Assembly: GCF_900105785.1 (NCBI RefSeq)
Contig: NZ_LT629799.1
Span: 2,666,001 to 2,730,000, forward strand
Source: Microlunatus sagamiharensis
Lineage (GTDB): Bacteria > Actinomycetota > Actinomycetes > Propionibacteriales > Propionibacteriaceae
Direction of reading: 5' to 3'
DNA: 64,000 nt
The position numbers and the translations under genes were made by a program. The notes beneath the pieces are model-generated. The model had not been told where the DNA came from and did not search any database. It worked only from the letters and a program-made list of their open reading frames with translations. This document shows, piece by piece, positions 45,382 through 48,978 of the stretch; positions within the stretch are counted from its first letter, which is position 1; every line of letters begins with the position of its first letter.

Positions 45382-46056
45382 TCAGTCCGCGGCGGCGAGC
45401 CCGGCGGCGTAGGCGAGGATCACGAGCGCCACCCGGTCGCGCCGGCCGGTCTTGGCGAGGAGCCGGCCGACGTGGGTCTTCACCGTGGCCTCGGACACGA
45501 ACAGGTCCTGCGCGATCTCGGGGTTGCTGCGACCTCGGGCGATGGCGCCCAGCACCTCGCGCTCGCGGTCGGTGAGCCCGGCCACGACCTTCGCGTCCTC
45601 GGCGCGGGGCCCGCGGCTCGCGGTGGCCGTCGCGTAGCGCTCGACCAGGCGCCGGGTCGTGCTGGGAGCGACGACCGTCTCGCCGAGGTGGACCGTACGG
45701 ATCGCCGCGAGCAGGTCCTCCGGCGGCGCGTCCTTGAGCAGGAAGCCGGACGCCCCGGCCTGCAGCGCGGCGAAGGCGTGCTCGTCGAGGTCGAACGTGG
45801 TGAGCACGAGCACCCGCGGCGGCTCCCCCGCGGGCTGGCCGCGGGTGATCAGCCGCGTCGCCTCGACCCCGTCCATGCGCGGCATCCGGACGTCCATGAG
45901 GACCACGTCGGCCGGCGTCCTCCGGAGCTGGGCGACGGCCTCGGCGCCGTCGCGCGCCTGGCCCACGACCTCGAGGTCGGGCTGGGAGGCCACGACCAGG
46001 GCGAGGCCCGAGCGCACGAGGTCCTGGTCGTCGACGAGGAAGACCGAGATCGTCAC
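45382..46056 (-). CDS. NarL/LuxR-type response regulator
   Basis: A 224-residue regulator. The receiver has VFLVDDQDLVRSGLALVVAS with the acidic pair, the phospho-Asp in DVVLMDVRMPRMDG and the Lys in GFLLKDAPPED. The LuxR-type HTH is LTDREREVLGAIARGRSNPE, IAQDLFVSEATVKTHVGRLL. Its GTG start overlaps the sensor kinase stop by 4 bp, so it is the cognate regulator of that kinase. Targets unknown. Confidence 0.93.
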   Translation of the reverse strand: MTISVFLVDDQDLVRSGLALVVASQPDLEVVGQARDGAEAVAQLRRTPADVVLMDVRMPRMDGVEATRLITRGQPAGEPPRVLVLTTFDLDEHAFAALQAGASGFLLKDAPPEDLLAAIRTVHLGETVVAPSTTRRLVERYATATASRGPRAEDAKVVAGLTDREREVLGAIARGRSNPEIAQDLFVSEATVKTHVGRLLAKTGRRDRVALVILAYAAGLAAAD

Positions 46057-47261
46057 GACGCACCGCCCGGCCGCAGCGGCAGGCAGGCCCGCACCGTGAA
46101 CCCACCCGCGGGCGCCGGTCCGGCCGCAGCGCGACCACCCACCGCGGCCACGCGCTCCTGCAGCCCGGTCAGCCCGAACCCCGGCGTCCCCGACCCGGCG
46201 GCCGGACCACCGTTCCCCTCGTCGTGGACCTGCACCACCAGCTCCTCCCCCTCGACCTCGAGCACGACCTCGACGCGGTCCCCGCCGTGGCGGCGCGCGT
46301 TCGTCAGACCCTCCTGCACGACCCGGTACGCGGTGAGCCCGACCACCGGGGCCACCCGGGCGAGGTCGCCGCGACGGCGTACCGACACCGCGGCGCCGGC
46401 CGACCGGGCCTGCTCGACCAACGCGTCCAGGTCGTCGAGGCCCGGCACGGGCCCTCCGCCGCCGGCCGCGGTCCCGGCCGGCGCCGCGCGCAGCAGGCCG
46501 AGCAGCTGGCGCATCTCGCCGAGCGCGGTGCGCCCGGTCTGCGCGACCTGCGCGAGGGCCTCGCGGGAGGTCGCGGCGGACTCGGGCAGCGCGTAGCGGG
46601 CGCCCTCGGCCTGCACCACCATCACCGACAGCCCGTGGACGACGACGTCGTGCATCTCGCGCGCGATGCGCGCCCGTTCGGCCGCGGCGGCCAGCTCCGC
46701 CTGCTGCTCGCGCTCCCGCTCGGCGAGCGCCGCGCGCTCGCGGACGGCTTCCGCACCGGCGCGCGCCCGCCGCGTCTGCTCCCCGTACGCCCACGCGGCC
46801 AGCAGCAGCACCAGCGCCCCGAGGGTCGTGAGGACGTGGGTCGTGCCGGTCGCGGGTCCGAGGCGGGAGTCGAGGTAGGCCCACCACGGGGTCAGCGCGG
46901 CGAGCCCGACCAGCAGGGCCGCGAGCGCGAGGACGACCAGCCCCGTACGCCGGGTCGTCCAGCCCGTCACCGTCGCCAGCGCGACGAGCACGGCGGCGTC
47001 GTGGAACCCGACGGGCGAGCCCACCAGGACCTGGACGGCGGCGGCGAGGCCGACCAGGGCCGCGGTCGTGCGCGGCACGGTGCGGCGCAGGGCCAGGGGC
47101 AGCGCGACGAGCACGACGAAGACCCAGTCCCCGGCGTCCGCGCGCGGCGAGAGCACCTTGAGCAGGACCGCGGACGAGCCGACGGCGAGCACGGCCAGGG
47201 CCACGTCCGCGACGACGATCCGGGCGTCCGGCGTCGCGCGGGGGCGCTCGAGCTCGGTCAC
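46053..47261 (-). CDS. Sensor histidine kinase (HisKA_3 type)
   Basis: A 402-residue kinase. About five transmembrane segments occupy the N-terminal half (ARIVVADVALAVLAVGSSAV, WVFVVLVALPLALRR, LVVLALAALLVGLAAL, GALVLLLAAWAYG). The phospho-acceptor is in ARIAREMHDVVVHGLSVMVV, and the GHKL ATP-binding part has YRVVQEGLTNARRHGG and FGLTGLQERVAAVGG. GTG 47261 has GAGGTG before it; GTG 47270 is an alternative. It pairs with the response regulator downstream. The signal is unknown; it lies in the opposite direction to clpP. Confidence 0.9.
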   Translation of the reverse strand: MTELERPRATPDARIVVADVALAVLAVGSSAVLLKVLSPRADAGDWVFVVLVALPLALRRTVPRTTAALVGLAAAVQVLVGSPVGFHDAAVLVALATVTGWTTRRTGLVVLALAALLVGLAALTPWWAYLDSRLGPATGTTHVLTTLGALVLLLAAWAYGEQTRRARAGAEAVRERAALAEREREQQAELAAAAERARIAREMHDVVVHGLSVMVVQAEGARYALPESAATSREALAQVAQTGRTALGEMRQLLGLLRAAPAGTAAGGGGPVPGLDDLDALVEQARSAGAAVSVRRRGDLARVAPVVGLTAYRVVQEGLTNARRHGGDRVEVVLEVEGEELVVQVHDEGNGGPAAGSGTPGFGLTGLQERVAAVGGRAAAGPAPAGGFTVRACLPLRPGGAS

Positions 47262-47409: not shown

Positions 47410-48033
47410 ATGAGCGACGACGACACGACCGACCCGCAGTCCGCGCTGGACCGCGGGCTCTACCAGCTGCTGCTCGAACGGCGCACCCTCGTGCTGGGCG
47501 AACCCCTCGAGCAGCGCAACAGCAACCGCCTCTGCCACGCCCTCCTGCTGCTCGCGGCCGAGGACCCGCAGGCCGACATCGCCCTGCTGATCAACTCCCC
47601 CGGCGGCTCGGTGCCGGGGATGCTGGCGATCCGCGACTGCATGCGCACGATCCCCAACGACGTCGCGACCGTGAACCTCGGCATGGCCTACAGCGCCGGG
47701 CAGTTCCTGCTGTCGTCGGGCACGCGCGGCAAGCGCTGGTGCATGCCGCACGCCAAGGTGCTGCTGCACCAGGGCTCGGCCGGGATCGGCGGCTCGGCGA
47801 TGGACATCGCCATCCAGGCCGACGACCTGCGCCACACCCGCGACACGGTGCTCGGCCTCATCGCCGCCGACACCGGCCAGCCCGTCGAGCAGGTGGAGCG
47901 CGACTCGCAGCGCGACCGGTGGTTCACCGCGGAGGAGGCGCTGGCGTACGGGTTCGTCGACGCGGTCGTCGAACGCCTCGACGACGTGCTGCCCGGCCGG
48001 CGTCGCCCCGTCGGGATGGGGGTCGCGCGATGA
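47410..48033 (+). CDS. clpP: ATP-dependent Clp protease proteolytic subunit (active)
   Basis: A 207-residue ClpP. DIALLINSPGGSVPGMLAIR gives the oxyanion region, GMAYSAGQFLLSSG the catalytic serine, AKVLLHQGSAG the histidine and ERDSQRDRWFTAEEA the aspartate, so the triad is complete. The handle and hydrophobic pocket are conserved. ATG 47410. It overlaps the second clpP by 4 bp and will form a mixed ring with it. The locus order fits the Streptomyces clpP3-clpP4-popR type. Confidence 0.93.
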   Translation: MSDDDTTDPQSALDRGLYQLLLERRTLVLGEPLEQRNSNRLCHALLLLAAEDPQADIALLINSPGGSVPGMLAIRDCMRTIPNDVATVNLGMAYSAGQFLLSSGTRGKRWCMPHAKVLLHQGSAGIGGSAMDIAIQADDLRHTRDTVLGLIAADTGQPVEQVERDSQRDRWFTAEEALAYGFVDAVVERLDDVLPGRRRPVGMGVAR

Positions 48034-48623
48034 GCAGCTACGCCATCCCGTACGTCACCCTCCAGACCACCCGCGGCGAGCGGACGGTCGACGTCTACAG
48101 CCGGCTGCTCGCCGACCGGATCGTCTACCTCGGCACGGGCATCGACGACGGCGTCGCCAACGCGGTGATCGCCCAGCTGCTGCACCTGGAGAACGAGAGC
48201 GCCGAGCTCCCGGTGTCGCTCTACGTCAACTCCCCGGGCGGCTCGATCCCGGCGACGCTGGCGATCTACGACGCCATGCAGTTCATCCGGCCGGCCGTCG
48301 AGACGACCTGCGTCGGGCAGGCGGCGGCCACCGCCGCGCTGCTGCTCGCCGGCGGGACGCCCGGGCGGCGCAGCATCCTGCCCCACGGCCGGGTGCTGAT
48401 CCACGCCCCCGCCGCCGAGGGGCGCGGGACCGTGCCCGACCTCATCCTCGAGGCCGACGAGGTGGCCCGCGTCCGGGCGCAGCAGGAGGAGATCCTCGCC
48501 GCGCACACGCACCGGAGCACCGCGCAGGTGCGCGAGGACACCGAGCGCGACCTCGTCCTCGACGCGCAGGCGGCGGTCCGCTACGGCGTCGTGGACCTGG
48601 TGCTCCCCTCCCGCGAGCCCTGA
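48030..48623 (+). CDS. clpP: ClpP-like subunit lacking the catalytic serine
   Basis: A 197-residue ClpP homologue: LPVSLYVNSPGGSIPATLAI, then CVGQAAATAALLLAGGTPGR where active ClpPs have GQAASMGA or similar. The serine position is alanine here. The His (LPHGRVLIHAP) and Asp (REDTERDLVL) are kept. It is therefore likely a structural or docking subunit that pairs with the active ClpP encoded upstream, like cyanobacterial ClpR. ATG 48030 overlaps the first gene (ATGA). Confidence 0.9.
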   Translation: MSSYAIPYVTLQTTRGERTVDVYSRLLADRIVYLGTGIDDGVANAVIAQLLHLENESAELPVSLYVNSPGGSIPATLAIYDAMQFIRPAVETTCVGQAAATAALLLAGGTPGRRSILPHGRVLIHAPAAEGRGTVPDLILEADEVARVRAQQEEILAAHTHRSTAQVREDTERDLVLDAQAAVRYGVVDLVLPSREP

Positions 48624-48645: not shown

Positions 48646-48978
48646 TCAGGCGGCGAGGGCGACCGGTCCGGTCGGGCGGCCGACAGAGACCGCGCGCGCG
48701 GCCAGGCGGCCCGACGAGCGCTGGGTCAGGTCGAGCACGCGCAGCCCGAGCGCGCCGGACAGCGCCGCCAGGACCTCCGAGGACGGGTCCTTCCGACCGC
48801 GCTCGATCTCGGAGAGGTACTGCGGGGAGACGCCGGCCCGGGCGGCGACGTCGGCGATGCGCTCGCCGCGCCGGCGTCGCTCCTCGCGCAGCTGGGCGCC
48901 CACGACCTCGCGCCACAGCGGTTCGGGCCGGGTGGGCTCTGGCTCGCGCCGGCGCGGGAAGGGGACCACCGTCGTCAT
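48646..48978 (-). CDS. ClgR/PopR-type XRE regulator of clp genes
   Basis: A 110-residue DNA-binding protein with the hallmark start EPLWREVVGAQLREERRRRG, the HTH ERIADVAARAGVSPQYLSEI and ERGRKDPSSEVLAALSGALG. Homologues activate or repress clp genes and are themselves Clp substrates; the C-terminus here ends in GPVALAA, a small hydrophobic end that could be a degron. It is convergent with the clpP pair (22 bp apart), as popR is expected near clpP3P4. Confidence 0.88.
   Translation of the reverse strand: MTTVVPFPRRREPEPTRPEPLWREVVGAQLREERRRRGERIADVAARAGVSPQYLSEIERGRKDPSSEVLAALSGALGLRVLDLTQRSSGRLAARAVSVGRPTGPVALAA

Follow-up and report, generated by a model that had tools for sequence, protein, structure and literature searches.

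The second subunit of a two-gene clpP operon found in the window, by which we mean the whole stretch of 64,000 nucleotides of Microlunatus sagamiharensis DNA analysed here, has alanine at the position of the catalytic serine. An altered triad is no peculiarity of this gene: 157 of the 222 ClpP4 genes that we collected carry one. Judging from the sequences of both partners, we consider it quite probable that the two proteins form a mixed core, of which ClpP4 is the half that docks the ATPase without catalysing and ClpP3 the half that cuts. Such a ClpP3-ClpP4 core would most likely possess half the active sites. The features of the locus are listed in Table 1.

Table 1. Positions of the features of the clpP3-clpP4 locus in the window
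Feature	Position	Strand	Basis
PopR-type double palindrome with variant arms, ending 42 bases before the clpP3 start codon	47340..47367	+	
clpP3-type gene of 207 aa; triad Ser95-His120-Asp169 intact; positions for ATPase docking (E. coli mature 60/62/82) occupied by Ala/Leu/Thr	47410..48033	+	
ATGA shared by the clpP3 stop codon and the clpP4 start codon	48030..48033	+	direct reading
clpP4-type gene, 197 aa, predicted non-catalytic	48030..48623	+	translation, Pfam, alignment, predicted fold
Codon GCC (Ala100), nucleophile position of clpP4	48327..48329	+	direct reading
PopR/ClgR-like HTH regulator, 110 aa, C-terminus ...GPVALAA, convergent to clpP4	48646..48978	-	

Positions 48030-48620 translate into a ClpP of 197 residues (Pfam CLP_protease, E = 4.4e-61), in which Ala100, His125 (CAC, 48402-48404) and Asp174 (GAC, 48549-48551) align with S97, H122 and D171 of E. 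coli ClpP. The Ser-His-Asp triad of an active ClpP peptidase subunit is absent, the site reading Ala-His-Asp, and by sequence the protein fits the definition of a ClpR, that is, a ClpP homologue without a working catalytic triad. A ClpP fold was predicted by AlphaFold2 for this alanine subunit (pLDDT 90.1), and in a Foldseek search with the predicted fold ClpPs were the best matches, the top one being a chain of M. tuberculosis ClpP1P2 (TM 0.90). The original prediction had correctly read both the replacement of the catalytic serine by alanine, with His and Asp kept, and the completeness of the upstream partner. The motif that it had quoted for active enzymes, GQAASM, held in part: serine has indeed given way to alanine there, but ASM is not the motif of this subfamily, whose serine-keeping members mostly show ASTA, ASAA, ASSA or SSAA at E. 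coli positions 96-99.

The 222 ClpP4 genes came from several samples. Among the order-level relatives 57 genomes were searched, and the ClpP4-like matches were fetched except that of genome G044; clpP4 was present in 12 of 20 genomes in the genus sample; an evenly drawn sample of the class gave a match in 128 of 393 genomes; and a scan of named contigs, a biased sample in that it comprises the best 80 matches to the window gene, contributed 77 of the 222 genes (62 altered). Fourteen of the 236 genes first labelled ClpP4 (L112, L115, L121, L225, L236, L237 and L239-L246) were set aside, since in the tree they, or the sequences representing them, fell with ClpP2 or outside it. All of these are triad-intact, and with them 79 of 236 genes would be intact. 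Ten ClpP3-labelled partners of these loci, likewise all intact, were dropped (from 231 to 221).

When the triad residues were read from a single alignment with E. coli ClpP, 65 of the 222 ClpP4 were found to be intact and 157 altered, with the serine changed in 94. Serine or histidine is changed in 142 of the altered subunits and only the aspartate in 15. Among the 221 fully readable ClpP4, the serine is replaced by Ala (58), Gly (17), Glu (11), Trp (5), Phe (1) or Asp (1); the histidine by Gly (46), Gln (3), Asp (2), Thr (1) or Asn (1); and the aspartate by Asn (12), Glu (10), His (6), Ser (3), Thr (3) or by Arg, Ala and Gln (1 each). The truncated gene of L111, in which the serine is already Gly and the aspartate is unreadable, was left out of the tree. 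Glycine in place of histidine was found in all 46 Streptomyces-type ClpP4, namely in 27 of 27 from named Streptomycetaceae and in 19 of 19 from an unnamed family (f20) whose genes are interspersed with those of Streptomyces in the ClpP4 tree; S. violaceoruber (L095) is included in these 46, and S. lividans itself is not. The evenly drawn class sample supplied 117 ClpP4, of which 77 are altered (70 at Ser or His and 7 at Asp only), and its 37 genera comprise 21 that are wholly altered, 13 that are wholly intact and 3 that are mixed. In the window's own genus 4 of 12 ClpP4 are altered. For the ClpP3 partners, the triad is intact in 219 of 221, and the other two are each unreadable at one residue (a frame break in L094 and a contig end in L101). 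The housekeeping controls, which represent one order only (the window's genome and 40 of the other 56 order-level genomes), have intact triads in 41 of 41 ClpP1 and 41 of 41 ClpP2. Since 65 of the 222 ClpP4 keep the full triad, catalytic loss is allowed in this subunit, not required. Two individual subunits may be mentioned here: L050 of Corynebacterium kalidii has the whole triad changed (Ala-Thr-Gln) with Ser/Tyr/Phe kept at the docking positions, and in L238, from another family of the class, the nucleophile is replaced by Phe and the aspartate by Asn.

The history of these changes was traced on a quick maximum-likelihood tree of 168 representatives of the ClpP4-labelled genes, 16 ClpP2 and E. 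coli ClpP, from which the catalytic columns had been removed. ClpP4 forms one clade (SH-aLRT 99), which includes the Streptomyces ClpP4 and lies apart from ClpP2. Parsimony gave 12 switches between the intact and altered states on the best tree, and 11, 10 or 8 when branches with support below 70, 80 or 90 were collapsed; because the outgroups are intact, most of these switches are taken as losses. Three lone ClpP4 with intact Ser-His-Asp (L019, L098 and L114) are nested among genes with Ala, Gly or Asp, and their serine codons (TCG, TCC and TCG, respectively) are one base away from GCN; it is possible that the active site was regained in them. The window gene belongs to a supported clade (96) of ten alanine genes, which includes genes of Ornithinimicrobium, Phycicoccus, Nocardioides and Corynebacterium kalidii, and the ClpP4 of the order-level relatives group with Kribbella and Nocardioides genes, which hints, though weakly in a family that seems horizontally mobile, at Propionibacteriales as the order of the host. 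The ClpP4 of the window's genus (L005-L033) fall in five separate places on the best tree, some of the separating branches being weakly supported, and this scatter suggests that the clpP3-clpP4-popR block has been horizontally transferred among Actinomycetes. The genes on the 5′ side of clpP3 differ: in the window, ORFs that by reading resemble a sensor kinase and a response regulator lie divergently on the minus strand (approximately 45382-47261), while in the closest relative found (L006, in the separate genome G017; clpP4 92% identical) the apparent end of a polyprenyl-synthetase gene is directly upstream, and therefore the pair has been inserted or lost. A link between the serine loss in ClpP4 and Ala instead of Met after the catalytic serine of ClpP3 was also considered (81 of 93 loci with the serine lost against 13 of 128 with it kept), and it was not significant when phylogeny was allowed for (five independent pairs, about one of them informative).

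The ClpP3 and ClpP4 subunits also differ at the residues for ATPase docking. In Streptomyces ClpP1P2 the ATPases are described to bind via ClpP2, in which S94, Y96 and Y116 were mutated; in the numbering of that paper these equal E. coli Y74, Y76 and F96 (PMC9765437), and by our own conversion they are mature positions 60, 62 and 82. The window ClpP4 has Ser/Tyr/Phe at these positions, against Ala/Leu/Thr in the window ClpP3. When Tyr, Phe and Trp are counted as aromatic, both 62 and 82 are aromatic in 41 of 41 ClpP2, in 36 of 40 readable ClpP1, and in 127 of 157 altered and 64 of 65 intact ClpP4, but in only 2 of 220 readable ClpP3 and in none of the 155 whose partner ClpP4 is altered. The other 218 ClpP3 lack one or both aromatics, mostly that at position 82 (taken singly, 62 is aromatic in 184 and 82 in 24 of the 220). 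The aromatic pair is incomplete in 30 altered ClpP4, with His at 82 in at least 14 of them. The axial-loop residues P4-G13-R15-D18-S21 are kept in 148 of 157 altered and in 65 of 65 intact ClpP4, whereas G13-R15-D18-S21 are not conserved in ClpP3, where the comparison covers positions 13-21, without 1 to 7, the N-termini having been trimmed on extraction. The commonest ClpP3 pattern at 60/62/82 is Ser-Tyr-Leu. By our matching of positions, it equals the S61-Y63-L83 patch of M. tuberculosis ClpP1, which was mutated and is reported to be dispensable there (PMC9067928). In these sequences the docking loss of ClpP3 thus looks older and almost universal, and the catalytic loss of ClpP4 looks later and repeated. 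The chances are about even, in our estimation, that the losses were complementary and sequential, with the ClpP3 aromatic pair going first (mostly at 82) and the ClpP4 active site being lost afterwards many times and perhaps regained. Under that scenario the early docking loss in ClpP3 would have made ClpP4 indispensable for docking and so released its active site.

The window pair is an actinobacterial clpP3-clpP4 operon of the PopR type. The two genes are adjacent, in the order clpP3-clpP4, and lie apart from the housekeeping clpP1P2 genes, which form a second, triad-intact pair elsewhere in the 4.4-Mb genome; the gene that follows them reads like clpX. Their ATGA overlap points to translational coupling. 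Of the 222 clpP4 loci, 221 have a same-strand clpP3 gene upstream, and the remaining locus is cut by a contig end. The regulator near the pair was matched to the NCBIfam ClgR model (E = 8.9e-16; 58 bits, below the curated cut-off of 170 bits) and has a degron-like LAA tail; it is predicted to be an activator. A PopR-like gene was found in 187 of the 222 loci, always convergent and never on the same strand, and 174 of these 187 end in AA; it was not found in the other 35, and many stretches had only 1.5 kb of flank.

With regard to the box, the published PopR box is given as ending in TCTGCC-N3-GGCAGA (PMC9775585). On direct reading the arms of the window box (GCTGCY/GGCAGC) have two mismatches to it, and 0.02 matches to the double palindrome are expected in the window. 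A pattern modelled on the window box, and thus designed after the site had been seen, had a single perfect match genome-wide; with two mismatches it had three (this site on both strands and one elsewhere) against six for the reversed control, and for these reasons only the single perfect match is given weight. In 217 upstream regions of clpP3, TCTGCC-N3-GGCAGA was present exactly in 60, with up to one mismatch in 117 and with up to two in 182, compared with 0, 0 and 4 to 5 in three shuffled copies that preserve letter content only. The ClgR box GTTCGC-N5-GCG is at most weakly enriched there (exact in 4 of 217; with one mismatch in 62, compared with 36 to 43 in the shuffles).

In S. lividans, ClpP1P2 degrades PopR, a paralogue of ClgR that is regarded as the activator of clpP3clpP4, and the circuit is described as making the ClpP3-ClpP4 pair only when ClpP1P2 fails (PMC9765437). 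This behaviour makes it improbable that the inactive ClpP4 is a regulatory poison that enters the housekeeping ClpP1P2 core and lowers its activity. A divergent ClpP can disturb ClpP1 complexes, as reported for ClpP-ADEP on ADEP-activated ClpP1 (PMC12607617), but clpP4 has a catalytic partner of its own directly upstream in all loci save the one at a contig end.

It is also very unlikely, from the residues around the site, that a neighbouring serine or threonine (Thr101 in the window), a possibility for which the original prediction had allowed, took over as the nucleophile and left ClpP4 a peptidase. All ten genes of the window's subclade have Ser or Thr directly after the alanine, and His125 and Asp174 are still present in the window gene. 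However, Ser or Thr at this place also accompanies a kept catalytic serine (ASTA in 47 genes and ASSA in 11) and therefore is no replacement as such. Moreover, two of the ten subclade members have lost the catalytic histidine as well (Ala-Thr-Gln in C. kalidii L050 and Ala-Gln-Asp in L172), the adjacent subclades show Trp-Thr, Phe-Thr or Gly-Pro, and elsewhere most alanine genes continue with Val or Ala.

We give equally little credence to the view that clpP4 became dispensable and is decaying, to which the many independent triad changes and the members with two or three triad residues changed might point. Purifying selection on clpP4 is about equal to that on clpP3: between the window and its 92% relative, dN and dS are 0.057 and 0.314 for clpP4 and 0.0585 and 0.328 for clpP3 (dN/dS 0.18 in both). 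Over pairs that share sequences and hence are not independent, the median dN/dS values are 0.170 for clpP4 and 0.172 for clpP3 in 670 altered pairs, and 0.188 and 0.248, respectively, in 54 intact pairs. In addition, no internal stop occurs in any of the 128 class-sample matches, and the axial-loop residues and Tyr62 are retained. Finally, a sequencing or assembly error at the Ala100 codon, which the original prediction had named as a possible refutation, can be dismissed almost with certainty, because the 92%-identical gene of a separate genome encodes the alanine by GCG instead of GCC, and alanine stands here in 10 of 10 members of the supported subclade (SH-aLRT 96). With the same site altered variously in many relatives, the change does not look like an error but like a true division of labour.

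For the assembly, ATPase docking, inactivity and regulation that such a division of labour would involve, we infer the following arrangement. ClpP4 would form one heptameric ring of the mixed ClpP3-ClpP4 core. This ring would not cut, because its nucleophile is gone, and, to judge by related systems, it would offer its axial-loop residues and aromatic pocket residues to a Clp ATPase. ClpP3, as the other ring, would supply all of the active sites without having the ATPase-docking aromatics; with the nucleophile missing from one subunit and the docking aromatics from the other, neither could replace its partner. The PopR-like activator would switch on the operon at the double-palindrome box and, by analogy with Streptomyces, its Ala-Ala end would mark it for destruction by the housekeeping ClpP1P2, so that the back-up core would appear only when ClpP1P2 fails.

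Published work on the related pairs agrees with a docking ClpP4 and a cutting ClpP3. Streptomyces ClpP1 combined with ClpP2 S131A is reported to have full activity (PMC9765437). In mycobacteria the catalytic serine of ClpP2 is described as dispensable, and a forced-asymmetry double mutant without the ClpP1 patch and without the ClpP2 serine grows (PMC9067928). For the viability of S. lividans either clpP1P2 or clpP3P4 is enough according to PMC9765437, and therefore clpP3P4 alone suffices. Taken together, the ClpP2-mutant data, this sufficiency and the Gly for His in 46 of 46 Streptomyces-type ClpP4 make a docking ClpP4 and a cutting ClpP3 the most likely arrangement. The 15 ClpP4 in which only the aspartate is changed may still be active, because Listeria ClpP1, with Asn for Asp, is reported to be active in its heteromer (PMC9765437). 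A point against an inactive ClpP4 might be seen in the report that S. cattleya ClpPs, each expressed singly with ClpX, shortened the half-life of RelB2 in E. coli (PMC4989188); those genes need not be orthologues of clpP4, however, and the ClpP of the host may have contributed.

Among known systems, the Streptomyces ClpP3-ClpP4/PopR core shares with the window operon the gene order, the convergent PopR-like gene, the Ala-Ala tail, the ClpP4 clade and, possibly, the type of box. The box arms differ (GCTGCY/GGCAGC in the window and TCTGCC/GGCAGA in Streptomyces), and so does the triad change: the Streptomyces-type ClpP4 keep the serine and have Gly for the catalytic histidine, whereas in the window ClpP4 the serine has become Ala and the histidine is kept. 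The closest functional analogue of ClpP4 is probably the ATPase-docking ClpP2 of actinobacterial ClpP1P2. In mycobacterial and Streptomyces ClpP1P2, too, one subunit docks the ATPase and the other cuts, and the serine of the docking subunit is reported to be dispensable when mutated (PMC9067928, PMC9765437). Nevertheless, both triads are intact in those pairs (for Streptomyces, PMC9765437; 41 of 41 each in the window's order), while in ClpP3-ClpP4 natural changes in both subunits have fixed the asymmetry. ClpR of cyanobacteria, plastids and apicoplasts is likewise described as a triad-less ClpP homologue beside an active ClpP (PMC7966870). It belongs to another lineage, however, and the ClpP4 system differs in its PopR circuit and in its numerous triad changes, which are dispersed across a single gene family. 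Listeria ClpP1 also represents an odd triad in one of two ClpPs, but its triad is reported to align to an active one in the heteromer (PMC9765437), which a missing nucleophile presumably cannot do.

A 2022 paper (PMC9067928), the main text of which does not mention ClpP3/ClpP4, is the only one in the literature searched that reports triad residues to be missing from one clpP allele of S. coelicolor and of Nocardia asteroides; it suggests natural asymmetry. In the open literature searched, we found neither an identification of such alleles as the clpP4 of the PopR operon, although the first reports on S. lividans (Viala and co-workers 2000, 2002) may note the ClpP4 residue, nor a description of the repeated ClpP4 catalytic loss or of the complementary loss of docking residues in ClpP3. 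What could have been taken for an isolated oddity becomes a repeated natural experiment, in which the ClpP4 triad was changed 8 to 12 times by parsimony, with every one of its three positions affected, and the 219 readable ClpP3 partners all kept theirs. If the losses were complementary and sequential as outlined above, the ClpP3-ClpP4 core is a natural version of the mycobacterial forced-asymmetry mutant. The purpose of inactive ClpR subunits has been called poorly understood (PMC9067928), and the role of inactive Clp subunits becomes testable in common laboratory Streptomyces. The present results also suggest ClpP3 as the subunit on which any inhibitor of the active sites of the back-up core would have to act.
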